64,000 nucleotides of DNA. It comes from Allacma fusca. Its lineage: Eukaryota; Arthropoda; Collembola; Symphypleona; Sminthuridae. The translations under genes and the position numbers were made by a program. The notes under the pieces are model-generated. The model saw only the letters and a program-made list of their open reading frames with translations. It was not told the DNA's origin and did not search any database. Where the stretch lies: positions 65,769,067-65,833,066 of the forward strand of contig OX359245.1 of the NCBI GenBank assembly GCA_947179485.1, read 5' to 3'. This document shows positions 5,253-37,869 of the stretch, in pieces (the stretch's first letter is position 1; every line of letters begins with the position of its first letter).

Positions 5253-5748
5253 TAGGGTTTGTCGATTTTTAAATGCCTTAGGTATTTTGCCTGCCCGGTA
5301 TTTTTTGCCAGCAGCAAGGCAAAAAAAACAGTTTATGCCTTCGCCTTGCCCTTAAAAATAAATGCCGGGCAAAAAGGCAATAAATGAAAGGCAAAAATTG
5401 TGGCAACAAAAAAATTCTCGAGAAAAATCTTTTGCGGGGCATGTTGAGGTTCAGTATTGTGCCATGAAGAAGTCAAATGACATGCAAACACGTACATGGA
5501 GAAACCGGTACTTTGAAAGTGTATCCTATTTTAAAGTTAGCCACGGTCGGAGCAAGCACTAATGATGGCGGAAATAGAGCGTTCCATGTGTATCGGTAAT
5601 TTATGCCAATTTTGCCAAGGCAAAAAATATTAAATGCCAATTCTGCCAGAATGGCATAAAAATCCTTTTTTGCCCATGTGAATAAATGCTCTAAAAGCCT
5701 GCCAAATTCGCCATTTATGCCATGGCATTTAAAAATCGACAAACCCTA
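5253..5748. mobile_element. Non-autonomous hAT-like element, 496 bp
   Basis: Terminal inverted repeats are near-perfect over 25 bp, beginning TAGGGTTTGTCGATTTTT at the left and its complement at the right. An 8-bp target duplication ACTATATG lies at 5245-5252 and 5749-5756, the length expected for hAT. The interior is full of AATGCC/GGCA motifs and carries no transposase. The short frame 5362-5562 looks incidental. Confidence 0.9.
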
Positions 5749-9660: not shown

Positions 9661-9666
9661 ATTTTT

Positions 9667-10976
9667 GAACGGGAAGTTGAGAGTTTCAATCGGCCTGATA
9701 AGACTCAACAGAGAACCTTTGTAGCACTATCGGCTTCGCAATCCACTCCGAGAAATTCTCGGGGACAAGAAATCTACGAAGGTACGTACATTTACCTCTC
9801 AGTGAAATAAAATATTTTATATTTTGAGATCAATTACTACCATGCATTCGCTTTGCGGAGAGATAGTGAGACTGTTCCTTGTCCACTGTACTACTCCAAA
9901 CTTTGATCGATTTTAATTACTTGTGTATTTAGATGGGATATTTTCTGAACGGGAAGTTGAGAGTTTCAATCGGCCTGATAAGACTCAACAGAGAACCGTT
10001 GTAGCACTATCGGCTTCGCAATCCACTCAGAGAAATTCTCGAGGACAAGAAATCTACGAAGGTACGTACATTTAACTCTCAGTGAATTGAAATATTTAAT
10101 ATTTTGAGATCAATTACTACCATGCATGCGCTTTGCGGAGAGATAGTGAGACTGTTCCTTTTCCACTGTACTACTCCAAACTTTAATCGATTTTAATTAC
10201 TTGTGTATTTAGATGGGATATTTTCTGAACGGGAAGTTGAGATTTTCAGTCAGCCTGATAAGACTCAACGTAGAACCCTTGCACTATCGGCTTTGCAAGC
10301 CAATCCGCGACATTCTCGAGGACACGAAATCTACGAAGGTACGTACATTTACCTCTCAGTGAATTGAAATATTTTATATTTTGAGATCAATTACTACCAT
10401 GCATGCGCTTTGCGGAGAGATAGTGAGACTGTTCCTTGTCCACTGTACTACTCCAAACTTTAATCGATTTTAATTACTCCTGTATCTAGATGGGATAATT
10501 TCTGAACGGGAAGTTGATATTTTCAGTCAGCCTGATAAGACTCAACAGAGAACCGTTGTAGCACTATCGGCTTCGCAATCCACTCCGCGACATTCTCGAG
10601 GACAACAAATCTACGAAGGTACGTACATTTACCTCTCAGTAAATTGAAATATTTTATATTTTGAGATCAGTTACTACCATGCATTCGCTTTGCGGAGAGA
10701 TCAGTGAGACTGTTTCTTGTCCACTCTACTACTCCAGACTTTGATCGATTTTAATTACTCGTGTATCTAGATGGGATAATTTCTGAACGGGAAGTCGAGA
10801 TTTTTAATCAGCGTGATAAGACTCGACACAGAACCGTTGCACTATCGTCTTCGCAATCCACCTCGCGGAATTCTCATCGACAAGACAGAAATTCGATGAG
10901 ATACTTTTTCGGCAAGAATTCAGGTTGGTACCACCAAGATTTCACAATGAATGTGATCGTAGAAGCTGAGTAGAAA
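9667..10976 (+). repeat. Tandem array of five exon+intron units, period about 278 bp
   Basis: Five units begin GAACGGGAAGT at 9667, 9947, 10227, 10504 and 10784. Each holds an open stretch of 126-129 bp (exons 9933-10061, 10213-10338, 10490-10618; first and last partial) ending TACGAAG before GTACGTAC. A 151-152 bp intron follows, ending in TAG. All full exons are multiples of three with phase 1 at both ends, so they splice in frame in any number. Each encodes a 42-43 residue module containing FNRPDKTQQRTV and LSASQST. The last unit (from 10771) diverges after its middle. A related peptide lies just upstream of the BED finger of the hAT transposase that follows, so this looks like its amplified N-terminal exon. 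Confidence 0.8.
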
Positions 10977-19814: not shown

Positions 19815-22407
19815 CTATAAATGACCACTACTCGCACTCTCAAATATTTTAGTCGAAACCTCGCCAGTCAGGCTTGCCGGCAGGTCTCTTCCTATATTTT
19901 TTGGTGGTTTTGGAGCATGACACTTGTCACCTACATCCAACCTAGCCGGTTTGGATGACCTCTGAATATTTCCATACGTTGCACAGTCCGGATTTTTCCT
20001 TTTGAGTGCCAGCATTCTTTTCGCCACTTTCACGGTCATTCTTGAATCCGCTATAGCGGAATGTAACGAACATTGAAAATCTGTCTTCTGAGGGAAAAAA
20101 TGTTGAGCTAGGTCCGACAATCGAAATGGCCCCTTCGAATCCCGGAAATAGTCTTGAATTTCCATTATAGTTGTTTTGTTCGACTTTATATCGTAGCCAA
20201 TACTATCCAGATCCCCTTGAACTGCTGCTCCTACAACCGTATTACCGGACAGAACCTTTTTTATTAGAGCTTTTGCCTGTAAAAAATTGAGTGTATTATT
20301 TTTCACTGCAGATCACAAGAACCTGAAGCACATAAATTTTTAAAGCACATGTTCATTTCAATATACCTGAGGAACTGTAATCCCGTCGTTGATTTTTCTC
20401 GCATCTAATCCTGTTAGTTTGGGGAAATACTGGCAGATGTTTTCTTGTTTTATTATGCACCATAGAATGAGCTCTCGACGGGCATCAACGATTGCAACTG
20501 TACCAGCCACCATTTTATGGGAATCTTTAACATTTACCTTCTCAATATCCATAAAAAGCAAGCCATTTTTGGGGATTAGGTCTCCGCGATAAATCAGATC
20601 AATCTATAATGTTAAAAATAATCAGGCACAAACAATTCATTATGACCTGAAAATAAAAATTATTTGAATTTCACTCACTTTCCACGCTGGAAGGTGAGCG
20701 AAGCGAGCGGCATACGCGTGGGGAGCTAGTGAGACCGGTACCTTGGTCCACTGTGTCACCTAACATTAGCCTCTTATTGGCGATGAAATTTTTTATTTTA
20801 GCTAATTTCGGTTTGCTCAAATCAATCAAGGTCTTACATACTACATCCACATAGTTGTCTTCTTCCAGTTCATAAAACTCATCCAGTATTCTTTTTTTCT
20901 GAAATAATTACAACCAAGAAAAATTACTTTATAGTTGTTATTACTTAAAAATAACTAACCTATCAGGGGTGCTGATTTAAAAAGAAGAACCACGCAAATA
21001 ATTAATTTTAGTTATCTTATTAATATATTAATAACTTTTTATTGCTAAGATACAATTATATATATTTCCGGTGTTTTTCGGGACGAGACTAAGGTAAAGT
21101 ATATGTCGAGTAGAGCATCTCGGGCGGTTAAAATTTACGGGTAAGCCCACAAAAAGCCCGGCCCGCACGGGCTTCGAGCGAGTACGGGTTAAAATTATTA
21201 GGTTTGACGGGTTACGGGCGGGTACGGTCTTTTCATCGCGGTTAAAAAAGACCGTGAAAGCCCGTAAAAACCCGTGCGAAATTCCATTAGTTGTGAATGC
21301 AGGAGCAGTGGTTGTGAATATACATAGGCTTGAATGACTTGAACGAATTTCAGACGCTTGCAATTTTAGCTTTCAAACAAACTAAGGCTTGGTGTACGAT
21401 AGAGCATCACCCCGTGGGATATTTTAGGCCCGTGCCCGTCTGTACGACTGTTACACTTCGCTCTTCATTACTGCGGAAAATTCCATTTAGTCTAGAAGAT
21501 GAATCCTGCTAGTAGTTCAAGTATTTGTAATAAGAATCCAGAAGTTGACACTGTAATAAATTCAAGAACGCCACCAGAAGTGCTTACCAAAGCCGAAATA
21601 GCAGCATAAGCTTTTGTATTGCCTTCTTAGTAAACAAGGTAGTTTAACGACTGTATGTAACAGTCAAGAACACCAATATTTTAAAATACAGTTTTTCAGT
21701 ATTTAAGATGTATGGTATTTGCGGGCGGGCGACGGGCTTATTTTAATATTGCGGGCCGGGCCGGGCTTTTTCGATAAACATTAATTTCGGGCCGGGCGGG
21801 TACGGGTAAAACGTTACGAGCCACGGGCGGGCACCGGCCTAAAATATCCCACGGGGTGATGCTCTAATGTCGAGTAGGCATGTTCATATCGTTCCATTTT
21901 ACAATATAGTTCTGTGAAAAATTACCGATAACGATATCGAGGTACGATATAATGATGTCACGTTGTGGCTTCTGGCATTATTTAACGAAAATCAACGGAA
22001 CTTTAATTTCGTGTACAAGATAATTATTATTACTAAGACTCCTTAAGAACAAAAGTTTCAACCCGGATCACATTTTATTCCAAATGTATGAGTCAAAAAG
22101 GCATTTGGGTTGAAAATATGAAAAACTTGAAGCACTTCAAGGATAATAATTTCCAAGATTAATAAATAAGAGGCATCGGCGTCAGTAAGAAAACATTGAA
22201 ACTACACATAATAATTACACCATAGAATTTCTGTTCATCATTACATTGACAACTGACCCGAATTGGGATCACCGTATTAGGGAAATGAAGTCATTAAAGT
22301 TTCTAAATTCTTCGAAGTTTCCAAACTAAAGTCAACAAAATAGCGAAAATCCAAAATTATTTTAAAAAATTACTTACCTTCGCATCTTTACTCTCGAATT
22401 TGGCCAT
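19815..22407 (-). CDS. DEDDh 3'-5' exonuclease, REXO4/ISG20-like (303 aa model)
   Basis: Predicted 3'-5' exonuclease of the DEDDh superfamily, which trims RNA or DNA ends using two metal ions. Model on the minus strand: exons 22407-22378, 20898-20716, 20603-20367 and 20276-19815, all joined in phase 0. Catalytic residues are all present: D90 and E92 (LLFMDIEKV), D172 (QGDLDSIGYD), H222 and D227 (LHSAIADSRM). The spacing matches RNA exonuclease 4/ISG20 proteins. A basic tail follows (about residues 235-303). The exon 1 donor (AAG|GTAAGT) is strong. The end of exon 2 (donor GTATGC) is the weak point: that stretch resembles a repeat and could be read differently. Intron 1 carries a hAT-like element (21111-21866). 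No stops or shifts appear in the core, so the gene may be functional. It could be host-derived or transposon cargo. Confidence 0.78.
21111..21866. mobile_element. hAT-like element in intron 1 of the exonuclease, GC-rich motif array
   Basis: Ends share TAGAGCATC as inverted repeats, and an 8-bp duplication ATGTCGAG lies at 21103-21110 and 21867-21874. The interior is made of GGGCGGGTACGGG and CCCGCCCG motifs, much more GC-rich than the surroundings. A further terminus, TAGAGCATCACCCCGTGGG, occurs internally at 21400 in inverted orientation to the right end, so the element contains three ends. Confidence 0.85.
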
Positions 22408-23351
22408 CCTGACGCTTAAATTAGAGTAGGTAGGAACGGGTCCAAATTTTCAACCGCGGTGTATACACGTGGGACTGAGTGGAGTGAGTGGGATTGAGTA
22501 TACAGAGTATATTTGAGATTGGGAGGGATTGGGAGTTTCTGCTGTGATGCATGGAGTGATTGGGACGGAGTGGGTGAAGAGGTGCCGAGAGTAAATGGGG
22601 ATCCCTTCGTTCTGACTGGTTTACCACTATATACAGGTACTTTAAGCTGTATTTTAAACTGAAGGGGCACGCTCATTAGACCACTATGAACACGTTACCA
22701 CTGTATAGAAAACCATTATATAGAGGGAATTCCCTATGATAAAGGATAGGAGATGGGACCGGGAAGCCAAATTTGACCACTATTGACAGGAAACCACTCC
22801 CGTGCCTTTGAAATGGAAAAGAATTTGCCACACTTTTTGAACGGTCACTGATTATGGTTGGTTATACTGCATTACTGTGCACCACTCATTTATCATACTA
22901 CATGTTTAGTGGCTCTACGTTGTGTTGTGACAACTAATGGAACTACATTCACACGTGGAATTGCTTTAAGTCATGTAGGCCAGCCATTACTTACACAACG
23001 AACAGCCACCACTAACGTTCAACATTTGGTTGCTTAAAACGTATATTGCAGTGACCATGTGTTGCGAACTAATAATCATTGTCTAATTTACCTGCCCCAA
23101 ATAATAAGTGCGACTTATTCAGCTTAACTGTGATCATTTATTGTGTCACATTTCGTTTGTGGAGTGCAAGTATTACTGTGCTTTCTCATTAAAGGAAATT
23201 CATAAATCCTGGATGCTGTGTTACAAGTTATAATTAAAAAACTGGTAAGTATTTTAGTTTATTGTAGTAAAACTTATTTTGTAGAAACAATTTCACCGCA
23301 TGGGACAGTTAGTCGCAGTTTTAAATCATAAAATATAATCTTATTTAGGCG

Positions 23352-23365
23352 GCACTCCGGAGTGC
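23352..23365. repeat. CCGG palindrome upstream of the exonuclease gene
   Basis: GCACTCCGGAGTGC, perfect over 14 bp, 230 bp before the exonuclease ATG. A second, imperfect palindrome (GGAGGCCGGCTTCC, one mismatched pair) lies at 23554-23567, just 28 bp before the ATG. Confidence 0.85.
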
Positions 23366-23594
23366 AGTAGTTGAGTTATAGGAGAAAATATAAGAAATAT
23401 TTGTATTCAGTACGTTTAAATTCATTAATTATAGAGAATATGCTAGCTTGAATCGTTATCCATGCGATAAGAATTTACGAAATATTGTTTACATTTGTGC
23501 TATCTTTGCTATTCTATTCACAGAGGAATTCCAGGAAATTTATTTCTAACTTTGGAGGCCGGCTTCCACTATTTGGTAAAAGCCTGGGGTTGTA

Positions 23595-25881
23595 ATGGCT
23601 TCCACACCTGGAACAAGTAAGCAACGTAAGGCGAAAGAGTTTAGGGAAAATAAGGACAGAGCAAAGCAACTTTATGGAACATCTGTATGCAGGCCTCAAG
23701 AGCAATATCCAGATTTTCTCCGTGCAAGGAGAGCTTACTTGTATGCACTGGAATCTTACCAACTTCCTAAAGTTTCGGAAATTGATTCATACGTCCTAGT
23801 TGTTGACCATCCCGAAAATGGTTTCCCAGAAAGACAAGCCCCGGTAACAATAGATACGTCTACTGATTTTGATGACATGATGACTGTTCTGGAAACTCAA
23901 CATGAGTTTATCATAGATACAGAAAGCCACCAGGACAAAAGTATTATCCGTAAGTTCAGTTGTACACATTATATTTCATAATATTTCATAATGTTTATCT
24001 TAAAGTCTTTTTAACTTTTCCTACCTTGCACTCCTGAGTGCACATTTCATGGCAATAATTTAGATCGTAATTGTTTTAAAATATTTGCAGCTTTTATCAC
24101 GACTCTACAAATCACTACACCAACGTCTCCAGAATATATTGTGTATGTGCCATCAGTATATGGAAAAATTGTGAGCGACCTCGCACCACTTTTACAAAAG
24201 GAAGGAAACCTAATAATTGGCTTTGCAATTAAAGGCGATTTACTGGAGATTAAGACAGATTTCCAATGCTTTCCTACTGCTGCTTTTTGCATACAGGAGT
24301 TTCAGGTCCGGTTAAATAGTCTTCAACAGCTACCTGGTTTGTATGAAGTTGCCCAATCATACATCCCCGAAATAATTCCGAAGACTGTTGGGGCTGTTTC
24401 CAAAAAGGTTTTTCAGCTTGCTGATTGGACCAACTGGCCTTATCACCGTGATCTACTACAGTATGCTCAAAATGATGTGTTCTACCCCAAACTCATTTGG
24501 CAGAAATTGAAACAGACAGTGAGTTACATTTTAAGACAACAAATTCATTTTCATTTAAACCTAATTTTCCCCTTCGGGGACTGTTAGTTTACATAATTGC
24601 TCTTGTTGACAGTTGCTTCTGGAACTATTTAGGGCAGGTTTAGTTTGATGTAATGTTTATTTATTTTAAACTCTAAAATCAGATTCCCTTGGAAACACTA
24701 CAGAAGTATGGCGTCACGCCAATGAAAACTGTATTGAAGCTACAAGTTGAATCATTCAGGCTCTCAGATAGTTTTGCAAATAGCTTTGCAAACTTTTTTG
24801 GAAGCCGGCTTCCATTCAAGGTGGGCATTAACCGGTCCTTATTCACCGACAATGTCAGCAATAAAGAACTGTTGGAATGCCTTTGGTGCATGAGAAGACT
24901 GCTTTCCGTTGGCAATGACATGCCACCAGAGGAACTGTTGTCTTTTGGTTCGCTGTGTTCAGTAACAATAAGGAGACCATCCACAAAGGGGGAATTGCTA
25001 AAGGCTTTATTAGGGACCAAATTTGACGCAGTATTACTCGAAACGTTTTCCCAAGTACTTCTCAATGTTGTAGCTGAAGGTAGAGATTACGTCCAGCGTG
25101 CAGAAAATCTTCGCTGTCACAAGTGTGCAAGAGTCGGTCACCCAGCTATTCGTTGTTTCAAGGGGAAGAACAACTGGAACCGTCGAGATTTTTTCCAACT
25201 GGAGGGAGAGCTTAAGGTTAAGGATTCCAAAACTAGGCTTGCAAAATACAATGCAAAATTAGTGAATCGAGGTCTGCAACCAGTTATGTCAGTAACCGCA
25301 ATGACTACCTTGATCCAGGCCCGTCAAAAAGAAATAGCGGATAAAAAAGCTGCTCGTGAGGATGCAAAGTTACAACGCATAAATTCAGCTATGCAGTCTA
25401 CAGCGAAAGAAAGACGTAAATCTAAATAATTATAATAATTGCTTTCTGTTTTGGTGGAGTTTTGTTTGTATTAAACCTTTGATATAATGAGGGAATAATT
25501 TTACAGAAATCAAATCACGGTTCTACGAGCAGTTCAATCAGAATCCAGTGCCTTTGCTACATCCGTACAAGAAGCAAGAGTCACCTCACCGTATTTTAAC
25601 GGTATCGGACAATATAACTACAGTTATTGATAAAATGGAAATACAATCATCCAGTGTCTTATCTCAGGATCCAGAAATGCATTTGGAGCCGGCTCCCAAA
25701 AAAGAAATAAGACGGGGTAAATGCCTTTTACTTTTGAAATATTTCTGCAATTTATTAAGAATTAAACGTGGCTAATGTTGTTTTATATGGGATTGTTTTT
25801 GTAGCTTGCCGTGGACGGGCCAATCCGGGAAGAATTTTTGCAACTTTGAACCAAACCTCTGGAGGCCGGCTTCCATTTTGA
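23595..25881 (+). CDS. RNase-D-like DEDDy exonuclease with CCHC zinc knuckle (600 aa model)
   Basis: Exons 23595-23949, 24091-24518, 24683-25415, 25507-25716 and 25805-25881 join with matching phases. Reading through at 25415 instead would end at 25429 (509 aa). The N-terminal half is a 3'-5' exonuclease fold of the RNase D/WRN type: D108 and E110 (FIIDTES), D168 (LIIGFAIKGDLLEI), then Y243 and D247 (LLQYAQNDVFY), a complete DEDDy set. A zinc knuckle follows at C406, C409, H414 and C419 (CHKCARVGHPAIRC), usual for single-stranded nucleic-acid binding, then a basic, Gln/Lys-rich stretch. The gene is convergent with the transposase and lies between palindromes at 23352/23554 and 25861. Its exon sequence contains further palindromes at 24799 and 25685. 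An exonuclease as transposon cargo is unusual. I infer a role in processing element ends or silencing RNAs, unproven. Confidence 0.8.
24028..24043. repeat. CCGG-type palindrome (one central change) in exonuclease intron 1
   Basis: TGCACTCCTGAGTGCA: arms identical to those at 29895, with the CCGG centre changed to CCTG. Lies within the intron 23950-24090. Confidence 0.8.
24799..24814. repeat. CCGG palindrome in exonuclease exon 3
   Basis: TGGAAGCCGGCTTCCA, perfect over 16 bp, inside coding sequence for GSRLPF. The arms differ from those of the other sites but are fully self-complementary. Confidence 0.9.
25685..25696. repeat. CCGG palindrome in exonuclease exon 4
   Basis: GGAGCCGGCTCC, perfect over 12 bp, inside coding sequence for EPAPK. 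Confidence 0.75.
25861..25874. repeat. CCGG palindrome (imperfect) at the exonuclease stop codon
   Basis: GGAGGCCGGCTTCC, one mismatched pair, identical to the site at 23554-23567 that precedes the same gene's ATG. It encodes the last residues GGRLP, a few bases before the stop at 25879-25881. Confidence 0.8.
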
Positions 25882-27610
25882 ATAATCGATTTTTTACGTT
25901 CAATTACCATTTCTTAAGTTTAGCAACTGTTCCCATGATCATCAATAAGTATATTGTTACATTTATTGTTTATTTTCCAGCTTCAGTAGTTTATACAAAT
26001 AACGATGATTAGATGGAAGATTAAATTTTTGCAAGTTACAAGAATGTACTTTACATTCATTTAGAAGTCTTGTGTATGCTTATGAAAAGTGCAACATGAA
26101 TTTATTGCAGCTGTATTTAATATGATAAAAACCCTGTAGTTACAATAAATTATAACGCCGCAGTTAACGTTGTAAGACATGAAGTGATTACATTTTTATA
26201 CTATTCCATAAAACACCCTTCTTACTAAAAGCTTCATCGTAGTAGTAGTAGTAGTGATGGTTGTCGTCGTTATGTACATGCCATGTTGAAGCATAGCGTT
26301 TCATTTTTTTTCTTTCATTTATCGAAACAAAATGCTTTAAAATAAAAATCCACGCATTTTTTTATTTTTAACATTTCTTTTTAGTTGACTTGGGCAGGCT
26401 TTAGGTAAAGTAACCAAGTTTTCAGCTTATTTCTGTCCAAGTCAACAAAAAAAGGATGTCATTTCAGAATACAAAAATGTAAAAAGAGAGAATAGAAATA
26501 CCGCAATGCTAAAAAAGCTACCAACATACTTATATCTTGAATGTTGGAATTTGTATGGTTATTTAAAATAAACTACCACTTACTTATTATGTACACGTTT
26601 TAATATTTTGTACAGTGTGGCTTATGTGATCAGTAGTCATTCATCATCTTTTAATCAGCACTATTAAATTCTAACTTTGGATAAATCGTCCATCAATACA
26701 TATTAGACATTAAATAAATTAAACTGATGTAGCTGTCATGCACTGATAGCGTTCTGGAAGTGACCTAATAGCCAACAACCTATGTTCACATTTATTGTAA
26801 ATAATCAGTTTTTGTAAGCCTGTAACATTTAATTATTGTAAAAAAATTTATACCCCGCAAAGTCAGATTAATTTAAAACCAATTACGATTTTTTTTGTCA
26901 ACCGTGCTACAGGCATCCTAACCTAATTTAAAAAACAGTTGATCCGATATTGACCAACAATTTTCATAACGATGCTAACATAAAATAGATGAGCTTATTT
27001 TTGCTGATGGGATATAAAACTCCATGTCGGTTTCCATACTATTTTTGTTTATTGTCACAACAGATAAAGCCACTCTAGCAATGAAGTCACTACATATAGA
27101 TATTTGCGAAACGTTGTGACAGTAATTATTTCATATTACAAAATATCTGAAACAGGCTACAGAAGGAGCACATTATATAGCTGAACCCATTTCGTGTTAG
27201 GATTATTTAGCTGTTTTGATATTTACATTATAATTCTGTGTAATTACTGCCTAAAATAAAACTTCTAGGGTCCCTTCCCTTTGAGATTTTCCCTGCCAGA
27301 AATATTTTTTCCGTAGAAAGAATCTTTCCGTCTTCCCACAAAAATCCGACCCCAGCCTTTATGTTAAGGTTAACTAATTGTTTTCTTTTTTTATATAATA
27401 TTTCTGTGTAATTACGGCAAAATTGAACTTCTAGGTTATTTTTATAAAATATTATTATATATTAGATAGTACTACACACTATCTACTGTCACACTTTCAT
27501 GTAATAACTATACGTTTTAATTTGAGGTTTTTCTATTTAGTGGTATATACCTTTGTCATTTTACTGCTTGAAATTATCATCAAGATTAAACATTAATTGC
27601 AATCTGCTAA
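25882..27610. other. Non-coding interior of the EnSpm-like element
   Basis: AT-rich sequence between the convergent exonuclease and transposase genes, presumably holding their 3' ends. A short TAG microsatellite lies near 26239-26255. I see no gene. Confidence 0.6.
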
Positions 27611-27626
27611 TGATATCCGGATATCA
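27611..27626. repeat. CCGG palindrome just after the transposase stop
   Basis: TGATATCCGGATATCA, perfect over 16 bp, 12 bp beyond the transposase stop codon (27639-27641, minus strand). Confidence 0.9.
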
Positions 27627-27638
27627 ATGTGTTTGCTT

Positions 27639-30285
27639 TCATTCCCGTATGTGCTCCCAATTATTTAGGAACTTGCAGGCATATCTGTGAGTCTTAAACT
27701 CAACTTTAATAATTTCGGTATCCAGCTCCTGAAGTTTCACAACGTCAACCATAGATACTCCAATAATTTTTACTATATGAGTCAGCCCAGCAAACGGAGA
27801 TGTTGTAAATATTCGAACTATAGCCCATACACCGGTGTCAGATTCCCCAAACACATCTACTTCGGCGTATCGTCCATCTTTAAGATTTACCCAAGACGAA
27901 TCCCTTAATTTGTTACGACTGTATCTCACAGAGTACCAACTTTTACCGTCACATGATTTTACGTGACTGTAATATCTTACATTATCATTTAAACTGGGAA
28001 TCAAGACCCCGTCTTGAGGGTGGTAGTCAGACAATAAACCAAACTGTCTTTGTACGGATTCGTTTCCGGTGCTTTTAACCGCTCCATGAGTTTGTAAATA
28101 TGTCCAATATCTTCTTGCCACTTGGTATCCCATGTACTGGGAATTATTAATAAAACTCTGTAAAACAGCATTAAAGGATTCAAAAGGTGCCATGGTGAGA
28201 CTAAGTATGTCCCCACCCCAGTACTTCGCTAATGCCGGAAGATGACGGAGTAGATGTACATTGAATCTGCATGCCCTAGGTCCATAAAGTTGGAGCACAT
28301 CTGCTGAAAATTTTTCTAAGCTTTCACTTGCATACTTCAGTCTTTCATCAATCACAATCTGGTCACAAAGGTGGCTTGATGTAAGAAGAATACTGCAGCC
28401 AAAAACTAGATGGATCCAATGACACCAATATGCTCTAGGAGCAGTGTGGTAAAGTAGTACCGGTGAGTAGTACATGAGCCACATTCCCCACTCGTGTGCT
28501 TTCCAATGAGTCATTTCACCTAAGGACCTTGGAGTACGAGATACTCTGTGGGGAGGTTTAATTAGAAGCAGATTATCAGTCAATTCCTGGAGCTGCTCCT
28601 TATTTAGTCGCCCGGCACAACTGGTGTCAGTCAGCAAAAACTGGGTAAAAGTGCGTGTAATTCCCAGATAAAGAGTGTGCATATAGCATGGTGGAGCATC
28701 TGAAAAATAAATGTGATGTAATTGTAAGTCGCGGGAAACAACTACAAATGTATTGCACTCCGGAGTGCAAAATTACTGTAGAAATGGTTAGTATGAACAT
28801 ACCGTTAATAATGTTCACATAATCCAGGTCCAACAGAACGGATCTTCCGAGAATACCTCGAGTTTTTTCTACATCTATTGTTCCTGTAAATTCAAAAGTA
28901 TTACAAAGGCTTCTGTGATTTGCGTTACTTCGCAAATCCAGCATAGGGGTGTGCTGAAAGTAATGTTTTGTTTCTCGATGAAAGCAGAATCCACAACCAA
29001 ACTTTCCATTAAGCTGTTGCATGTTTTGTACAGAAGGTCGAGCCATACTATCACAGAGAATCTTTGAAACAAATACTTTAGACGTAACTTCTGTGGTGGA
29101 ATCCGGATTCCAAGTAACACCCGCAGTAAGTAAACTATTCATAGTTGCCACAAAAGGGGTTAAAAATTTATTCATGTCAGGTTTGCTGCATAAGGAATCA
29201 TGACTCACGTATACCCCCACAAGTAAAATATTATTCATTGTTACATGTTTTGGCAGACCGTCAATATAACTCAATATAGGCCAAATACTGCAGTTGGAAC
29301 TTTTTGATGCTGGAGCACCATCAACATTTGCCGTGATGGAAATATCACGTCTTTCATCAAGTCCTAACGATTTCATTTTGTTTAAAATGCTTTTTGGTAA
29401 TCTACTCAAATCCCGCAATGGCCAGATCCTAGGCAAAACAATTCGCAGTAGTTCACGCATTTGTAAATACACTGAGTGATTGTCATTTGTTGTGTAACTG
29501 ATTCCACAACAAATTTGTGCTTGTGGGGAAGGGTTCTGTGGTGATGTGGACACTAATAATGTCTTTCCACACTTATCGGCTCGACAAGTCCAGCTCACAA
29601 GAAATTTAGCCCATTCCGGAAGAACTGACGATTCTAGTTCACAAAGCGTTAAAGGCAATTTGGTGACTTCGTGTGGATTACTTGTTTTGAGTAACCGTAA
29701 AAGTTCATTTATTCCATAATTAGGAATTTTGTACTTGGATGCAAACGTCAGTACTTTCAGTCGTAGTGATTCTAGGGAAGGAAGTTTTTGATCTGATTTT
29801 TCAGCAGCCCAAGCTGCCATTCCGTAAATTTCGTTTGTGGTATCCTCATCTGCAGTATGTTCAGCACTGCTTACCATGTTGTCACCAGGTCCACTGCACT
29901 CCGGAGTGCACTCAATGAGGACGTTTATTTCCGGGGATGAATTCTGCGATGTAAGACCAAACTCATTTGCCACATTCGGTTCATCATTGACAAAGTTGGC
30001 TACGACAAGCGATACATCAGGTTGTTGCAAGGGAGTTGTAGTTTCTAGAACAGTCGGATGTGGATTTTGGAACGCTCGGGGCACAAATCTTCGAGTGGAA
30101 TTGGAATCTAAAGTAGTTACACAAATTATACCCATAATGTCTTTACAATTATAATAAGAATTTCATTCAACATTTACAGCTATTTAAAAAACATAGTGCT
30201 TACAAGGTTGGGCAAGTTTTTTCAGTCTAGCTGCACGCTTCCATTTCCCCGCTTTCGAAATACAAGGCTTAATATCCCTTTCCAT
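27639..30285 (-). CDS. EnSpm/CACTA-type transposase, intact (826 aa)
   Basis: Predicted DDE transposase that excises and inserts the surrounding element. Exons 30285-30204, 30140-28803 and 28699-27639 join in phase (T|AC and G|AT codons) with no stops. The N-terminus is short and strongly basic (KAGKWKRAARLKKL). Around residue 300, NVDGAPASKSSNCSIWPIL matches the first-Asp block of animal EnSpm-type transposases. LCDSMARPSVQ and GKFGCGFCFHRE follow, matching the family's DxxAR and GxxGCxxC region. The exon junction at residue 474 gives DAPPCYMHTLYLGI, equivalent to the D-x-MH-x-LG block. TMAPFESFNAVLQSF near residue 645 supplies the Glu. These assignments rest on family knowledge and visible motifs. 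Palindromes lie upstream (30411), downstream (27611), in an intron (28753) and in coding sequence (29097, 29895). It is divergent from the gene at 30984. Confidence 0.85.
28753..28770. repeat. CCGG palindrome in transposase intron 2
   Basis: TTGCACTCCGGAGTGCAA, perfect over 18 bp, within the 103-bp intron 28700-28802. Confidence 0.92.
29097..29112. repeat. CCGG palindrome in transposase exon 2
   Basis: TGGAATCCGGATTCCA, perfect over 16 bp, in the coding sequence for TWNPDST. Identical to the intronic site at 31435. Confidence 0.92.
29895..29910. repeat. CCGG palindrome in the transposase N-terminal coding region
   Basis: TGCACTCCGGAGTGCA, perfect over 16 bp, encoding part of ECTPECSG in the low-complexity N-terminal region. 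Confidence 0.92.
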
Positions 30286-30410
30286 GACTATCACACTTTT
30301 CTATTAATTTAAAGTTTCATTAGCAGTTGCCGTATGGTTGAGAAATATAATATAATTTAATGACAGATTTGACATTTTTGGCACGGTTGTTACTATACGC
30401 GTCCACTATA

Positions 30411-30428
30411 ATGGACTCCGGAGTCCAT
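30411..30428. repeat. CCGG palindrome in the divergent intergenic region (transposase side)
   Basis: ATGGACTCCGGAGTCCAT, perfect over 18 bp, about 125 bp upstream of the transposase start (30285, minus). Confidence 0.92.
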
Positions 30429-30897
30429 TTCCGTAACCGGTAGTTCACAATAGATGTATGCCTTATTACATGTATATAAATATAAATGCTCTTTATAACT
30501 GCGTATGTGTATTCTGTAAACATATGCATGTATACATTTCTCGACGGTGTATAGTGTAGACCATCGTAAGCAATAATTGTTCAGGTCAGTTTGTAGGGAC
30601 TGGATCGAACGCAAGCGCAGCTTCCCTGTGTACTCGTGGGTTTTTATTTAACAACTAATGAACACGCCTGTAATAAATACGGAAGAGTTCTTTCCGTTAT
30701 TAATGTTTGTCGGTTAACCATCCTCATCTCTAATACCTGACCGCAATACTACTTTTGCATAAAGTAGAGCTACAATTTCTAGATTCGTGTTTCCTTTGTA
30801 GATACCAGCATTAAATTCAAGGTAACTTCAAACTTTAATAATTCTTATTAAGTAATAGTTGTTTTCAGTTGCCCGTACTAATACCTGCAAATTAAGA
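30429..30897. other. Divergent intergenic region between transposase and 300-aa gene
   Basis: About 700 bp separates the two start codons, and palindromes at 30411 and 30898 sit toward either side. This is the likely shared promoter region. I see no clear TATA or initiator assignment and no gene; the short frames on the minus strand here lack domain content. Confidence 0.5.
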
Positions 30898-30915
30898 ATG
30901 CACTCCGGAGTGCAT
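30898..30915. repeat. CCGG palindrome upstream of the 300-aa gene
   Basis: ATGCACTCCGGAGTGCAT, perfect over 18 bp, 68 bp before the ATG at 30984. Confidence 0.92.
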
Positions 30916-30983
30916 GATTTTCTGATAATCTGTTTGGTGAATACATACTGCTGCATGGGGAATTATATATTTAGCAGGATAAC

Positions 30984-32190
30984 ATGACATCACAGGGTGG
31001 CAGAGGCTCTCGCTCTAAGGTTACCACGCCGAAAACATTACCAGGAGTAGAAGCTATTGCAGATGCAGTCGGAACACTTCTAGAAGGAAAATTTGCAGAA
31101 TTAAAGAATACGGTCGTCAATCTTTCCAATAAAGTAGAGGAGACCGCGGGTGCATTGGTTGTTCTTCAAAATCGCTTCGATGTGGCCACAGCAAACAATG
31201 TGAATGAGGTTCGGAACAATGTCGTTGATATGGACAAAATAAGGCAGGACATTTCGTTGACGTTGGGAAATGTTGCGGCAGAAGTCAAATCATCATTTGA
31301 GCAAACCTTACAGGGTAGGAGTAAGGCAACAATTGAGGCAGGGTCAGCTAGCTTTGGAACTACTTCACAAGTTGAGGATGTAAGATACGACCTAATTTTG
31401 CAAATGTAACTCATGAAATGTTGTTATTCCTTCCTGGAATCCGGATTCCAATCTGCTAATGATGATTATTGTGTAATATTTTATAGACTCCATATGTTAC
31501 TATTATCTGGGAAGACCGTGAGACTCCAATTTACTTTCCGTCATCTGTACGAGAGAGTTTGGCCGTTCAAACAATAGTCAGAGGGGTTGTTCGAGTAGTT
31601 CTTCGCCATTTTCATCAAATAACGGAGATACGCATGTTTACTTTAAAAGGGTAAGTGGAAGAGATTATCTGTTTCCATTTTGATTTAGAGCGGGTGGATG
31701 TATAATATGGACTGTGGAGTCCAATTGTACTATTTCTTCCAATGTTTTATATTTCAGATCCACGGAGGAGGAGAGCAACGTAGAGGACAGTGCCGATGAA
31801 TTGGAAGCTACTGATGAACCGCCGAAAATGTCTGTTCCGGCCAAAACTCTGCTCGTTGCAACAGGTAATGTACGACTTTCATTTAGTGTGTAATCAAACC
31901 GAATTTTCTTTGGATGTGTATTACTCTGACTTTATTACATGAAAATGAATTCAGGTGTGGCTCAGCAGAGATTTGCACCCTCTGCTGCAATCAAGGTCAA
32001 TGATCCCGTCGCGTATGCCAGAATGATGGAAAATTTACGCCGAGAAGTTCGAGGTTCTGCCAGCCGGGTATTTCAGTACTTTCGTACTCGTTATGATAAA
32101 AATGGAAATCGAAGAATTTTGCCTAGAAAACCCCCACAGACTGGTTTACGTGGTAAAAAGACTCAATGTACCTCATCCACGCCACAGTGA
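30984..32190 (+). CDS. Unrecognised transposon-encoded protein (300 aa)
   Basis: I do not recognise this family. Exons 30984-31379, 31487-31650, 31758-31864 and 31955-32190 have good GT/AG sites and matching phases (0, 2, 1) and give one uninterrupted frame. The N-terminus is polar (SQGGRGSRSK). Residues about 25-110 have heptad-like hydrophobic spacing (LLEGKFAELKNTVVNLSNKV), suggesting a coiled coil and oligomerisation. Residues about 133-187 form a compact hydrophobic block (PYVTIIWEDRETPIYFP) that could be a folded domain. An acidic linker (STEEESNVEDSADELE) and a very basic C-terminus (YDKNGNRRILPRKPP) follow. Basic plus coiled-coil character would suit a DNA-binding accessory factor, perhaps the palindrome reader; that is inference. 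It is flanked by palindromes at 30898 and 32198 and divergent from the transposase. Confidence 0.72.
31435..31450. repeat. CCGG palindrome in intron 1 of the 300-aa gene
   Basis: TGGAATCCGGATTCCA, perfect over 16 bp, in the intron 31380-31486. Same sequence as the exonic site at 29097. Confidence 0.92.
31708..31723. repeat. Degenerate palindrome in intron 2 of the 300-aa gene
   Basis: TGGACTGTGGAGTCCA: the six-base arms match those at 30411 and 32198, but the centre is GTGG instead of CCGG. Lies in the intron 31651-31757. Confidence 0.75.
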
Positions 32191-32197
32191 AGATATC

Positions 32198-32213
32198 TGG
32201 ACTCCGGAGTCCA
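32198..32213. repeat. CCGG palindrome just after the 300-aa gene stop
   Basis: TGGACTCCGGAGTCCA, perfect over 16 bp, beginning 8 bp after the stop codon at 32188-32190. Confidence 0.92.
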
Positions 32214-33079
32214 TTTATGCCAATAATTACTTCATTGTGAATTATTGTACTAGTTTTTCTACACTACTTGAATATTTTTGGATTTTTGTAGCATTTTAAT
32301 TGCTGCAAATTTATTGTTAGTTTAAGTTCTCTTCATATGCGTTTATTTTCACTCCAGAAACTGTATGTGCCCCGCAAGCCACCTTGTCTTACATTTTATT
32401 AACACATTTTTAATTTTATATCTTTTCCCTGTAAGGTGACAAATAATGCGAGTTAATGTTTTTGGTATAATAAAAACGATGTGAGTAATGATACCATTGT
32501 CAGTTATTTTAATTTAAATTGTGGATAAAATACATAATTATTATATTACATAGCCTCTTTTTTGAACACTGGGTATTTTGCAAGCAAAAGGTGATTAATA
32601 GCATCCAATTACCGGTTCAAATTGAGGCATTACTAGTTAGAGCTTCAAATATCATTAATTATTATACAACAAAAATACAACAAAAAGTGGGTAACCACTA
32701 AATGAGCAGGTCTGTGTATAGACGGGACAACTGACAGTGTGTGAGCAACTGTGAGAGCAGATTGGATGTGCAGTAACTATTGGCATGTGGTGAGCTATAC
32801 TGTATTCCACTGACAACGTCTACATACTTGTTCATGTATTAGTGGATTTCAAATGGGTGCTACGAATTGGCGCGCTATTGAACGGCTGACAAGGAAACTT
32901 CACACTACTTTTTGGTGCATGAATAGTTGGCAACATACTATCACCGATTCAAAGGCACGGGCTATATGAACGGCCATTATATACAGGTTTTACTGTACTC
33001 AAGTAATATAAATAATTGATACTAAAATTTTTATAGATAACTAAAAATGGGCCGCAAGAAACCAATTCAAAGATCCTGG

Positions 33080-33777
33080 AACTGTTCCTGCAGGAACAGG
33101 AATGTTCCTGTTCCTGTTCCCAAAAGTACTTAAAGACTAGCAGAAAAGTACACCCTACACATTTATGCCCCAGGTAACTCTATTTATGCATCGATTTAAA
33201 AAAACAAATATCAAATCGACTTTATTAAAAATGAAAAACAGCACACCATCTCCAATACCTGTAGCTACTCGAATTTAAATGAGAATTCAGTAACAGTCAT
33301 TAAATTAATCATCGCAGCGCAAAGTACAGTAGTAACTGAAATTAGCTAAGACAAATAGCACTTTCAATATACTTTTGCTGAACTAACAAGGAAAAGAGCA
33401 GGCTGGAGTTTTCTGAGCTACAATTTTGGGTTTAAGTTCCAGAGAGTTTCATTTTTTCCACGTGATAAATAATAATGATTTATTATTTTGTTAAATAATA
33501 ACGTGCGAAAGAGTGACTTATTTGACATGTTGCGACATACTTTTAAAACAATATTTTATTTGTGAGGTATTTTTATATTATAAACTTCATGTGAATACCA
33601 GGTAGGTACACGTTTTGTTCCTGTTCCCAAACCCGGTTTTGTTCCCATATTTTGGGAACAATTTCTATGTTCCCAAACGTTCCCAAAGTGTTTTGGGAAC
33701 AAAATTTGTGTTCCCGTACGCACCCATTCCTGTTCCTGTTCCCAAAAACCTGGGTGACTCCTGTTCCCATGGACAGC
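33080..33777. repeat. TTCCTGTTCCC motif-array element
   Basis: Arrays of TTCCTGTTCCC and TTCCCAAA occupy 33080-33125 and 33615-33772, flanking an AT-rich middle. The right end reads GTTCCCATGGACAGCCCTA, a hAT-like terminus in reverse. The left end appears truncated. It abuts the left edge of the duplicated zinc-finger block at about 33784. Confidence 0.6.
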
Positions 33778-34418
33778 CCTATGTACTAGTCAGCATTTCC
33801 GTTTTATGTTTGCCTTACTTTTATTTAGATGTACAACATTATATTGCCACTGTAATGAGTTAAACACGTTTCTTGAAATAAACTTATTATTTGACCCTTT
33901 ACCTGCTCCGAGAACAGTACTTAAGTCTAAAAAGCATCATCTATCAAAACCTATAGTTCAGCTTATACTGCTCAGTGTTGCGACCAAATCCAAATTATAT
34001 TTGAAAATTCAATTTCAAATTGAAATCAAACCAAATACAATTGTCCATTTTATAATAAATTGGTTGAGCGAATCAAATTCAGTTGTGTTTGAAATTTGAA
34101 ATTGGTTTTGAAATTTGGATGAACTTCAAATCAAATATGATTTTATAATTTGAAAACCAAATCAATTTCGAATCCAGATTGCCCTAATGCAAATTTGATT
34201 TTGAAATTGGTTTTGAACTTGGTTTTGAAGTGTATCGCTTAAAGTCTAAATTGCATTGAAACCGTCTGGACTATTGAAAGAAATGATTTTGTGCATTCTC
34301 ATCATTCATCTCAAGCATTGCTTTACTTGCGATTACTTGCCACGGGCTTTTCACGATTAACGTTGAGATCACGATTTCAGTTGACTTGTAATATCAATTT
34401 CGTAGTTAATGGTACCAG

Positions 34419-35444
34419 GGGCCTATTTCACCAAGCGCTCTTCACTCCTCAATTTTCACTTTTCATTTGGTTTTGAAAAGTTTTTGTTCCACCATTGCAC
34501 TTTGCATTTGTAAATTGCAAAATGCAAAGTAGTAACTTTTCACACCCGATTTTGCAATTTACGTTTCACAATACTCGCCGGGAAAATGCAAAAGTGCAGA
34601 GTTTTGCAAATTTCCATGAAATGAATGCAAAGGGTCTCCACCTTTTGCACTTGGTACATGTACCATTAAATATATGTAGTTTCTCAACCTACCCGTTTAA
34701 AAAATTGTTTTACTTATTTAAAATTCCAATCTAAACTCCAACTAAGTTGATTTTGTGCCCTGAAATTGCGTCATAACAATAAGGTACGTATCATATTACC
34801 ATTTGTTATTATTGTCTATAAGTGTAAATTTATTAAGACAAAATACGCATTTCCATAATTTTTTAAATGTTTTAGAAGAATCAAAATGAATCTGCTGTTT
34901 GATAGCAGTGACGAAGTAGATGATGACACTGCGTATACCCTCAGAGTTTACCGAACCCACATTAACTTTACCATCGAAAAGTTCCGAATGAGATCCTCCG
35001 AAATAGAACATATCCTAGAAAGAGTAGGACCGTTTTTAAGCCCAAAACAAATATGTCGCCGGAGGAGCAGTTACTAATAGCGTTCCACTGGCTGGGTAAT
35101 GGGGGACAGTATCATGGCGTTGCTGACATGCATGGTATCAGCAAATCAACTGTTTGTCGTGTTGTCTACTACTCACCAACCATGATCCAGGATAAAACGA
35201 ATGGTGATAACGAGATCTTCTGGGACTTTGTGAGACAATATGATATGAACTTAAATATTCCATTGGGTGCTCATCATTGTATGTTTGCACTTGATGCTTA
35301 CCGTTCGAAAATTTGCACTCCTCACTTTAAATGCAAAGTTGGTGAGTTTGCTTTGAGATTTGCTCCGCACTTTTCACTTTGCGTTTATTGCAAAGTGAAA
35401 AATGAAAATTGAAAAGTGAAGAGTTGAATTGGTGAAATAGGCCC
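34419..35444. mobile_element. PIF/Harbinger-like element nested in the hAT element
   Basis: Ends GGGCCTATTTCACCAA and its complement form inverted repeats. The 3-bp duplication CAG lies at 34416-34418 and 35445-35447. TTTGCA/TGCAAA motifs crowd both subterminal regions. The interior keeps only the N-terminal part of a transposase. Confidence 0.9.
34886..35412 (+). pseudogene. PIF/Harbinger transposase N-terminal fragment
   Basis: The first frame (34886-35077) has FTIEKFRMRSSEIEHILERV. After a small frame change near 35050, the second frame (35053-35412) gives SPEEQLLIAFHWLGNGGQYH and then GISKSTVCRVV. This is the helix-turn-helix region that precedes the DDE domain in PIF/Harbinger transposases. 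The catalytic DDE domain is missing; the frame runs straight into the right subterminal repeats. The element is therefore an internal-deletion derivative needing a helper. Confidence 0.8.
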
Positions 35445-36840
35445 CAGGTATCAAAATTATTATAAAAATTAGGCTTAATTTTGGTAATAAGATCCCATGT
35501 GCTCCACTAATAATTTGTTGGCACACTTAATTTAATTAACTCCTTTGTTTTTTCCTTTTTTAATTAATACTTTATACAGGGTAATTTAGGACTTAAAACA
35601 GTGAAAGTATTACATTCTACATGTCTACGAATGTGGAACCTCAACACGATGTTATGTCAAATAAACCGGCCTAATCTTTATTCAAAGGATGAATTTAAAA
35701 AGTATTTAGCTTCCTTCAGTCACTTCAGTGCCGGTTCCTCGTATCTGAAAACTGGCAGCTTGTAACTTTTGTTTTATGAAAATGAACACGCATTCGATAA
35801 TGTGTCAAAAATGGCTAGATTTGTTTAAGAGCTTCAAAAACTGGTGTGCATGTGGAGTGCATATTCGAAACAGGAACCGACTTGCTTACTGTGAAAGGAT
35901 GGTTATGCAAGCTGTTACTACTAAAACTTGTAAAAAGGATTGATACAATTGTTAGCAAATTTCAAGAGCTTAGTGAGTAGAATTGTTTGGCTGCCTTATA
36001 CTTCATATAACATTATAACCATATTCACCTGTTTGGGCTAGCTTAAACTTGAAAAAACCAAGTTCAAATCCAATTTCAAATCAAATGCAATTTCGGATAA
36101 TTTGTTGATTTGAAATGCAAATAAAATTCGGATTCAAATAAAACACTGAATTTGGTTTCGTCAAATCGGTTATTTACTCAGTTGATTTGGTTTTTTAAAT
36201 CCAAATCAATTTAGGAGGTGTGAATAAATTGTATTTGAAATACGGATTGAAATACAATTTCGGATCTGAAAATGTTTGATTTGGTCGCAACACTGATACT
36301 GCTTGAGTTATCTCCATTTTCCATTTCTTGCAATTTTTTAAAATCTTGGAAAATATGAAAATCTGATTTCAAGAAAAAGTTTCACATCGATGACCTAAGC
36401 AAACGCTGCCTGCGCTTGTTTCACACCTTTACCTTGCACCATCCAAAAGTTTGGGTCCGTAGAAAAAAATTTCGAACATACAGGATATTTTATATTACCG
36501 CTTTAATCATAAATACGTAGATTTTACTGGCAGTGTGCTTACATTCACACACATTAGAACACTTGACAGGTTTAACTAATCCAAATCAAATTGCCTGGCT
36601 AAATTAAAAACTTTAGTGAGATTTACTGAAATGTTACTACCAAAATGTGACTGTAGATTCATAATTTGGTAGAATGCGATTAATACATTTGTAAGACTCA
36701 TCAGGAGCATACAGGTAATTATATAAACGAATGTACTTACGTGCACGCAAGCACAGTATTCTGTAATAGCACTATATACTTAAACTGGAAATCATCAATT
36801 ACGGTAAAATATTACACAACCGCCACTTAATTCCATGGAG

Positions 36841-37869
36841 TTATTGCTGTATTGACCAATCTGTTCTTTCAATATTCAGACTGAATAAAGGTAATTTGTG
36901 GCAAAATGAGTAGTGCATGCAGAGCTCTTTCTCCGAAAATAAAGCGTAATTGCACTCCTTACAAATAAAAATTTCAAAGAGTGCTTGATTCGAGGATTCA
37001 TTAATTTCCTGATCATCCCACGAGTCGAGCTGAGTATCCCGACAAAAAGATTCTTCCTCACTTTCAAGTAAATCTTGCAATTGATATGGTACTGTGTTCT
37101 GTTGCTTCCTTAATGAACCCAAATCAGTAATTTTCGCATATTTCTCTGATGAGACAGCCGGTGTTTTAGGAGGGATCTTACACTTGAGTGACTTTCTTCC
37201 AGGCCGAAATCGTTTTTTAGGGGCCAAGGAACTTCGTGGTTTTGCAGGGTCTTCGAGTTTCCTCATGTTTCCTCGTATATGAATTGTTTTATGGATTTTT
37301 AAACTAAAACTTCGTGTGGATGAGTAATTACAATGTGTACATTTGAACGGCCCTTTTCCCGAGTGTAATTTTTCGTGGTTAATTAAAATCGAGCTTCGAG
37401 TACAAGCTAAAGGACAGTGTTGACACTTAAAAGGCTTATCCCCAGCATGGACTCGTTCATGGCGCTTCAAATTACCTTCATAAGCTGATTTGAAAGAGCA
37501 GTGTCGACACTTAAACGGCTGAACTCCAGAATGCTTCATCCTTTCGTGAAATTCCAAACTACTCTTTTGAGCTGTTTTGAAAGGGCACTGGTGACACTTA
37601 AATGGCTTCTCCCTTGTGTGTTTTTTGTACTCATGATTTTTCAAACGAGATTTATGAGCTGTTTTGAAAGGGCAGTGCCGACAATTGAATGGTTTCTCGC
37701 CGGTATGAACTCTTCCATGGATTTTCAAATCATAGTTTCTTCTACTAGCGTAGGAGCAATGTTCGCATTTGTGAAGTTTCTCTCCTGCACGGATTCGGTT
37801 GGGTCCTTTTAAATTATTGCGTTCTGCTGAAGCGTCTGGGGACTGTCGAATTTCGTACTGTTTCCCCAT
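36841..37869 (-). CDS. C2H2 zinc-finger protein, intact (342 aa)
   Basis: An uninterrupted single-exon frame starts at an ATG at 37869. It encodes six tandem C2H2 fingers (about residues 33-200), most joined by TGEKPF-like linkers. A charged, Ser/Lys-rich linker follows (about 200-300), then one isolated C-terminal finger (CKECNYALFSEKELCMHYSF). The architecture is that of a nuclear, sequence-specific DNA-binding protein, probably a transcriptional regulator; the target is unknown. It is the only undamaged member of the three copies here (others at 1838-2950 and 5773-9225). Relative to copy A it has one finger fewer. No recognisable N-terminal regulatory domain is present. Expression is not shown by the sequence. 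Confidence 0.85.
   Translation of the reverse strand: MGKQYEIRQSPDASAERNNLKGPNRIRAGEKLHKCEHCSYASRRNYDLKIHGRVHTGEKPFNCRHCPFKTAHKSRLKNHEYKKHTREKPFKCHQCPFKTAQKSSLEFHERMKHSGVQPFKCRHCSFKSAYEGNLKRHERVHAGDKPFKCQHCPLACTRSSILINHEKLHSGKGPFKCTHCNYSSTRSFSLKIHKTIHIRGNMRKLEDPAKPRSSLAPKKRFRPGRKSLKCKIPPKTPAVSSEKYAKITDLGSLRKQQNTVPYQLQDLLESEEESFCRDTQLDSWDDQEINESSNQALFEIFICKECNYALFSEKELCMHYSFCHKLPLFSLNIERTDWSIQQ

Follow-up and report, generated by a model that had tools for sequence, protein, structure and literature searches.

A stretch of 64,000 bp from the genome of the springtail Allacma fusca (positions 65,769,067-65,833,066 of contig C1; hereafter the window) contains a DNA transposon, designated element A, through which short palindromes with a CCGG centre are dispersed. 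Element A is 10,163 bp long and runs from 22799 to 32961 of the window, as determined by comparison of copies, the flanks of which diverge outside these limits. The 5' terminal inverted repeat (TIR), CCCGTGCCTTTGAA, is located at 22799-22812 (+) and matches the reverse complement of the 3' TIR at 32948-32961 (-). Its genes, in order from the left end, are an exonuclease gene (+), a transposase (-) and a third gene (+). In the genome searched (392.7 Mb), further copies are present on C10 (99.9% identity), C1 (96-97%) and C8 (mostly 94-96%, with an internal gap), together with a fragment on C8. The four copies with both ends are flanked, as judged by eye, by 2-bp target duplications: CT in the window, AT on C10, and TA on both C1 and C8. 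The copy at C8:66,064,000-66,076,000 (loci L036 and L008) lacks most of the transposase and the third gene, with no alignment to 26801-31592, and is possibly non-autonomous.

The Rrp6/EXOSC10-like exonuclease gene (23595-25429, +; PF01612, E 2e-10) has about three exons, which were placed by eye at approximately 23595-23949, 24091-24520 and 24677-25429. The DEDDy residues are present, exon 1 ends in ...FIIDTES, and a CCHC knuckle was recognised by eye in exon 3. The N-terminal and catalytic part of the transposase (28627-30135, -) weakly matches Transposase_21 and is conserved in a palindrome-free relative of A and in two families, B and C, described below; its C-terminal part (27639-28682, -) is a 347-aa open frame that is 66% identical to the same frame of the palindrome-free relative. 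The Transposase_21 match has an E value of 8.4e-4 and 19 bits, with a family cut-off of 28.6 bits, and no homologues of the transposase were found in the protein collection searched. The third gene (30975-32190, +) is coiled-coil-like with several exons and is also found in the palindrome-free relative; its coiled-coil exon gave no match in PDB. A TIR starting with CCC and a 2-bp target duplication, which are TRC features, are found both in A (CCCGTGCCTTTGAA) and in family B (CCCACAGCTTGG, TT). Animal TRC elements have CCC-starting TIRs, 2-bp target duplications, Transposase_21 and spliced transcripts (PMC1636069). SmTRC1 resembles A in its ends, duplication and transposase (weak in A), and its transcripts are spliced; as a difference, the words "exonuclease" and "palindrom-" are absent from the main text of the SmTRC1 paper. 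Element A is best described as a TRC-type CACTA-related (TRC/EnSpm-type) transposon, though its transposase scores under the Pfam cut-off.

The palindromic sites have a 16-bp form, TG-n4-CCGG-n4-CA, in which the arms are variable and matched across the centre. An earlier sequence-only reading of this DNA had listed nine perfect CCGG-centred palindromes of at least 16 bp, and all nine are there: TGGAAGCCGGCTTCCA (24799-24814) in exon 3 of the exonuclease gene; TGATATCCGGATATCA (27611-27626), 3' of the transposase; TTGCACTCCGGAGTGCAA (28753-28770, 18 bp) at the junction of the two transposase frames, probably an intron; TGGAATCCGGATTCCA (29097-29112) and TGCACTCCGGAGTGCA (29895-29910), both in the transposase frame; AATGGACTCCGGAGTCCATT (30410-30429, 20 bp), which is intergenic; ATGCACTCCGGAGTGCAT (30898-30915, 18 bp) in the leader of the third gene; a second TGGAATCCGGATTCCA (31435-31450), probably between exons of the third gene; and TGGACTCCGGAGTCCA (32198-32213), directly after the last frame of that gene. 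The shorter perfect palindromes that it listed were also found, as a 14-bp core (23352-23365) of the palindrome GGCACTCCGGAGTGCA (23351-23366) in the 5' leader and as a 12-bp core (25685-25696) of the near-palindrome TTGGAGCCGGCTCCCA (25683-25698). Its near-perfect palindromes are likewise present, with starts that differ by 0-1 bases: TGGAGGCCGGCTTCCA, with one G.T pair, occurs in the 5' leader of the exonuclease gene (23553-23568) and a second time at 25860-25875, TGCACTCCTGAGTGCA (24027-24042) lies in intron 1 of the exonuclease gene and is perfect in the C8 copy, and TGGACTGTGGAGTCCA (31708-31723) is probably between exons of the third gene. The sites are single and 175-1751 bp apart, and several (24799, 29097 and 29895) lie within coding frames.

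In element A, 13 CCGG-centred 16-mers have at least seven of eight possible pairs, against 0.05 expected from first-order Markov shuffles, and nine 16-mers with any centre are paired at all eight positions (0.20 expected from the Markov shuffles). The rest of the window (53,837 bases) contains four CCGG-centred 16-mers with seven of eight pairs (0.75 expected), none of which has TG...CA at both ends. Other palindromic four-base centres with at least five of six arm pairs were TATA (2) and TGCA (1), all others being zero, and non-CCGG centres were enriched neither in A nor in the BEL/Pao element described below. To avoid circularity, symmetry was left out of the choice of sites for the pairing test. 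A search for the consensus only (TG, CCGG and CA, symmetry ignored) found 11 sites in A, seven in the BEL/Pao element and none in the rest of the window. Among these 18 sites, 64 of 72 arm pairs matched; redealing the right arms among the sites gave a mean of 38.3 and reached 64 in none of 20,000 shuffles, which bears out the claim that symmetry is kept while the arm sequence varies. When one mismatch was allowed in the fixed bases, 16 sites were found in A, 14 of them with 3-4 of four arm pairs, and nine in the BEL/Pao element, seven of them with 3-4; of the 12 in the rest of the window, 11 had 0-2. The preferred arm letters are [GC]A[CA]T. Pairing ends sharply at eight bases from the centre, giving an 8+8 unit, in A, the BEL/Pao element and family C. 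Isolated half-sites in A are at about background, so that the whole palindrome is the unit.

Genome-wide, the pattern TGSAMTCCGGAKTSCA was found at 34 places and its reversed-pattern control at none. All 34 matches are perfect palindromes, although palindromes make up only a quarter of the combinations allowed by the pattern. Twenty-six of the places are in copies of A; the other eight are in four copies, 99-100% identical to each other, of an unrelated BEL/Pao element (Peptidase_A17, E 5e-49). The sequence-only reading was right in assigning the set to a transposon, but the palindromes are not limited to one transposon. A related pattern, in which the outer arm has A or T, had 11 places (control 2), none of them a perfect palindrome. 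With one mismatch allowed, TGSAMTCCGGAKTSCA was found at 99 places (control 10), and the list of the 65 one-mismatch places covered 16. Two looser patterns matched 38 and 31 places (4 in each control), and four of each list were outside A and the BEL/Pao element. Seven of these eight outside regions were read (all but C12:5402494); all were singletons with no second good TG...CA site, so that a similar density in unrelated DNA, named earlier as a refutation, was not seen there, and the singletons were rejected as further families. A viral source was also rejected: when viral contigs were searched for exact matches, a single contig had one site, with no cluster over 12.9 kb. In the patterns searched, clustered CCGG sites turned up only in A copies and the one BEL/Pao element.

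The presence of CCGG sites in two unrelated classes of transposon is what would be expected if a host protein bound to them licenses transcription in the germline, different transposons having acquired the sites of different factors. That explanation seems improbable to us, given that no clustered CCGG sites were found outside A and the BEL/Pao element in the patterns searched (16 of 65 one-mismatch places listed), that related families differ in core (see below), and that it leaves the link with the exonuclease unexplained.

The sites of the BEL/Pao element are at 334, 1039, 1273, 2252, 3039, 4542, 5288, 6193 and 6918 of the stretch read, the one at 334 having six of eight pairs. Spacing is more even than random in both A (P 0.025) and the BEL/Pao element (P 0.010). 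The sites inside the coding frame of the BEL/Pao element fall in all three reading frames, by which a protein motif was ruled out as their cause. Its relatives with 66-68% identity have no palindrome at 4542 (four loci) or at 5288 (one of those loci). The alignments are gapless there, indicating that the sites were gained here, or lost in the relatives, by point substitution. At 29097 of A, relatives carry (C/T)GGAATCAAGATGCCA without a gap, an equal-length near-match of 12-13 of 16 bases. Insertion of a tiny palindromic element was thus rejected, since the homologous sites are ungapped and of equal length (29097 in A; 4542 and 5288 in the BEL/Pao element). BEL/Pao elements are abundant in this genome (150 Peptidase_A17 matches scored out of 802 candidates, many of them with open frames of at least 1,700 aa). 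Among the matches listed, two like elements with 1,814-aa frames (C5:27441779 and C5:31564908) have one-mismatch sites, TGCACGCCGGAGTCCA, about 760 bp past Peptidase_A17, and are possibly another BEL/Pao family with such sites.

Differences from the window copy within the site cores number none in copy c10, four in c1, three in c8 and two in c8b, and one of them (24027 in c8) restores the centre. Set against positions elsewhere, the counts are 4/240 vs 216/9,826 in c1, 3/128 vs 233/5,115 in c8, 2/96 vs 55/3,269 in c8b and 0/240 vs 7/9,922 in c10, which gives no clear sign that cores change more slowly. A deleted remnant with 77% identity (C10:36.07 Mb) retains a portion of the exonuclease gene, along with the three alignable A sites (24027, 29895 and 30410) in degraded form, that at 29895 with a 6-base insertion inside the site.

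The closest palindrome-free relative found, at C1:42844001-42855600, has about 70% DNA identity to A in the transposase. It has the same kind of left end, the transposase and the third gene (the stretch stops short of the right end). The exonuclease gene is missing (best match E 0.13; no PF01612 match there), and of its eight CCGG none has at least six pairs, the best core count being equalled in 44 of 100 shuffles. Three other copies, as partial stretches, contain no CCGG-centred palindrome of at least 12 bp. A protein-level search with exonuclease exon 3 returned the copies of A and three distant relatives, two of which are in transposons with a palindrome set of their own. Family B (C8:11552058-11561381; TIR CCCACAGCTTGG, duplication TT) has nine CTAG-centred sites around AACAAACTAGTTTGTT, and family C (C1:54.78-54.79 Mb), which is decayed, has seven TGnnnnCTAGnnnnCA-like sites with a CTAG core. 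The prediction that further exonuclease loci carry a set held in both loci read afterwards, D and E; of the 57 PF01612 matches in the genome, three rows of A copies and those of B, D and E were read. Family D (C10:35827601-35831100) has four sites around AACACACATGTGTGTT (CATG), about 600 bp apart, and a transposase fragment at its right end. Family E (C8:25823501-25826300) has three sites around AAAACTCTAGTGTTTT (CTAG) and three more in a tandem array, the sole one among the families, which follows the exonuclease gene in units of about 92-96 bp with a single orientation (L063:2483-2700). The core of E is asymmetric and is in the exonuclease-sense orientation in all six sites, three of them in the tandem array.

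The core is therefore CCGG in A, CTAG in B, C and E, and CATG in D, with sites often every 500-700 bases. Each one-core set was reached in none of 100 shuffles (13 CCGG in A, eight CCGG in the BEL/Pao element, nine CTAG in B, seven CTAG in C, four CATG in D and three CTAG in E), the segment limits for C and E having been set after the sites were known. As the CTAG and CATG cores hold no CpG, the CpG-methylation-sensitive marks suggested earlier are not the general explanation.

The position of the sites relative to the genes raises the question of RNA processing, in which one stem-loop per intron and leader would control splicing or 3' processing, with the exonuclease as feedback regulator. 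The CTAG sites inside the transposase and exonuclease genes of B sit between open frames, and those of D lie, by eye, in the leader, intron 1, intron 2 and just past the stop. A site of A lies in intron 1 of the exonuclease gene and others are probably between exons of the third gene. Other sites of A are in coding frames (24799, 29097 and 29895), and eight sites of the BEL/Pao element lie in one uninterrupted 2,173-aa frame, for which reasons we consider this explanation unlikely.

In family B the mirrored arms extend about 15-17 bases from the centre (about 30 bp). Matched pairs were 38 of 40 at positions 9-12 (22.8 in shuffles) and 30 of 40 at positions 13-16 (11.8), neither count being reached in 5,000 shuffles, and the outer sequences are unrelated from site to site. 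Pairing itself thus seems to be under selection. In D the outer mirroring is marginal (positions 9-12; 238 of 5,000 shuffles), and in E, with three sites only, 820 of 5,000 shuffles reached it. Arbitrary mirrored arms as in B could also arise if template switching perfects and lengthens short near-palindromes that have no function, a process with which the equal-length near-match of the relatives at 29097 would agree. Such a mutational by-product would leave unexplained the one core, the one TG...CA frame (A, C and the BEL/Pao element), the even spacing, and the restriction to exonuclease-bearing families and one retrotransposon, and other centres are not enriched in A or the BEL/Pao element; we regard it as very improbable.

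A serious rival is that the sites are DNA dyads with an anti-silencing or enhancer role, at which a nuclear protein of the transposon, binding as a homodimer, keeps the whole element open in a VANC-like manner, the BEL/Pao element borrowing the protein of A. Exons, introns and intergenic DNA are all used, as are three reading frames in the BEL/Pao element; the arm preference [GC]A[CA]T points to reading of sequence, and the sharp end of the unit at 8+8 in A, C and the BEL/Pao element is in keeping with this rival. Family-specific motifs that act over the whole element are also the pattern of VANC (PMC5735166, PMC10398659). Degenerate half-sites should vary independently between the halves, however, and they do not. 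Nor does a dimer need unrelated mirrored outer arms, so that the simple homodimer half-site of the sequence-only reading leaves those of B unexplained. The exonuclease gene has no recognised DNA-binding domain except the CCHC knuckle seen by eye, and the third gene is also found in the palindrome-free relative. On balance we find this rival possible but rather doubtful.

A five-family exonuclease profile (C as a fragment) matched EXOSC10/Rrp6 in PDB with E 2.8e-25, Egalitarian with 1.7e-12 and WRN with 3.1e-5. The exonuclease of D alone also matched Rrp6 (E 5.9e-17); the exonuclease exon of A alone gave no match in PDB. The catalytic D-x-E motif was found in A, B, D and E, with the later D and Y..D motifs visible in their alignment, and identity of the exonuclease domain between A and the other families is 19-41%. 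An HRDC-like match (PF00570) in E (23.5 bits) and B (22.5 bits) is just under the cut-off of 23.8, and HRDC was not listed for D or A in the domain scan. Judged from these matches, CACTA-related transposons here carry an Rrp6-like nuclease as their accessory gene. This gene resembles Rrp6/EXOSC10 in its exonuclease domain with DEDDy residues and, below the cut-off, in the HRDC-like match of B and E, Egalitarian being a more distant relative, and differs in being transposon-borne and in the extra CCHC knuckle of A. In Drosophila, RRP6 degrades transposon transcripts from heterochromatin, helps keep heterochromatin packed and is required for silencing of heterochromatic repeats (PMC4577213).

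We propose, as a tentative reading to which we give somewhat less than an even chance, that a transposon-borne system with an Rrp6-like protein uses the family-specific palindromes for self-recognition, and that they act as stem-loops in transcripts. A subgroup of springtail CACTA-related transposons would have taken up an Rrp6/EXOSC10-like 3'-5' exonuclease gene. The sites would form stem-loops in nascent element transcripts, with the four-base core as loop and the mirrored arms as stem, and the Rrp6-like protein of the same family, or a partner of it, would recognise them. Binding would block or redirect decay by the nuclear exosome, and the silencing that it feeds, over some hundred bases per site, which would account for sites spread fairly evenly. 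The BEL/Pao element with CCGG sites would exploit the diffusible factor of A. Selection on pairing together with a family-specific core suggests that a matching protein reads a stem-loop or dyad; the co-occurrence with an Rrp6-like gene suggests RNA decay or surveillance; and the CCGG sites in the BEL/Pao element suggest a factor that acts in trans. More speculative, and in our view not very probable, is the fuller version in which a captured exosome nuclease and a family stem-loop "password" protect or mark the element's own nascent RNA, a change of core brings divergence, and an unrelated retrotransposon evolved the password of one family so as to be protected too.

Several observations weigh against the proposed stem-loop system. 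Folded as RNA by themselves, sites of 16-18 bases make weak hairpins (-2.1 to -7.0 kcal/mol, six sites); with flanks, the B sites reach -9 to -21 kcal/mol. In a hand tally, departures from pairing by a single pair were about nine G.T and six A.C, with no clear sense-strand G.U bias. Sites are in introns as well as exons and would therefore have to act before splicing. Mirroring beyond eight bases is absent from A, C and the BEL/Pao element and is clear in B alone. Compensating arm changes at the same site, put forward earlier as a check, were not seen between copies of A (94-99.9% identical), so that the covariation is from site to site and not from copy to copy. In the BEL/Pao element, whose 2,173-aa frame contains eight sites, a comparison with one protein showed no recognisable exonuclease (E 0.014 for the best match). 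Locus L059 holds an exonuclease remnant with no transposase match and no one-core set, and no transposase match was found in the 2.8 kb of E read. In our judgement, recognition at the RNA level is somewhat likelier than at the DNA level.

Of the known systems, the VANC/VANDAL elements of Arabidopsis (Mutator-like) have a short repeated motif peculiar to the family and an accessory gene, with motifs that differ between related families and an effect that spreads over the element (PMC5735166, PMC10398659). The springtail families also carry differing motifs (CCGG, CTAG and CATG cores). VANC motifs, however, are tandem repeats in noncoding regions, whereas here single palindromes are spread across introns, exons and intergenic DNA, and in the springtail the element is CACTA-related and its accessory gene encodes an Rrp6-like exonuclease. 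Since tandem noncoding motifs are not what A contains, it was not classed as VANC/VANDAL. In bacteria, REP/BIME palindromes and RAYT transposases combine dispersed stem-loops with a dedicated nucleic-acid enzyme, the REPs lying between host genes genome-wide. Dispersed sites with a dedicated enzyme are common to both systems, the clustered springtail sites being found in transposon bodies. En/Spm elements of the CACTA superfamily have repeated short TnpA sites that are subterminal and clustered near the ends; the springtail sites, in contrast, are palindromic and run through the whole element.

Other features were seen in the window. A 342-aa open frame with several C2H2 zinc fingers (36841-37869, -) lies about 4 kb from A. 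At 21400-21866 there is a MITE-like structure, the 44-bp inverted arms of which are 93% complementary, and 25-31 bp inverted repeats about 1 kb apart (34410-35453) are probably another non-autonomous element. Tandem repeats were found at 9661-10875 (a 280-bp unit, 4.4 copies, 92% matches) and at 49685-49838 (21/42/63-bp repeats within a 181-aa open frame). The word TGTTCCTGCAGGAACA occurs at 33082-33099 and again near family B (L057:7351-7366).

Absent from the sequence-only reading are the unrelated retrotransposon that shares the CCGG sites, the relatives that bear the exonuclease but differ in core, and the relative with neither. In a literature search that covered titles and abstract openings, outside subscription papers and Repbase, we found no description of family-specific palindromes running through transposons, nor of a DNA transposon that carries an Rrp6-like gene. 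Even under another mechanism, covarying family palindromes tied to one accessory gene would remain, for which that search likewise gave no description. If the proposed system is true, it would be one in which animal transposons recognise themselves at the RNA level (or DNA level) by a family code that can be swapped and that is itself parasitised. Escape of transposons from nuclear RNA surveillance and silencing would then become testable, and the families would offer matched pairs of protein and site for studies of specificity.

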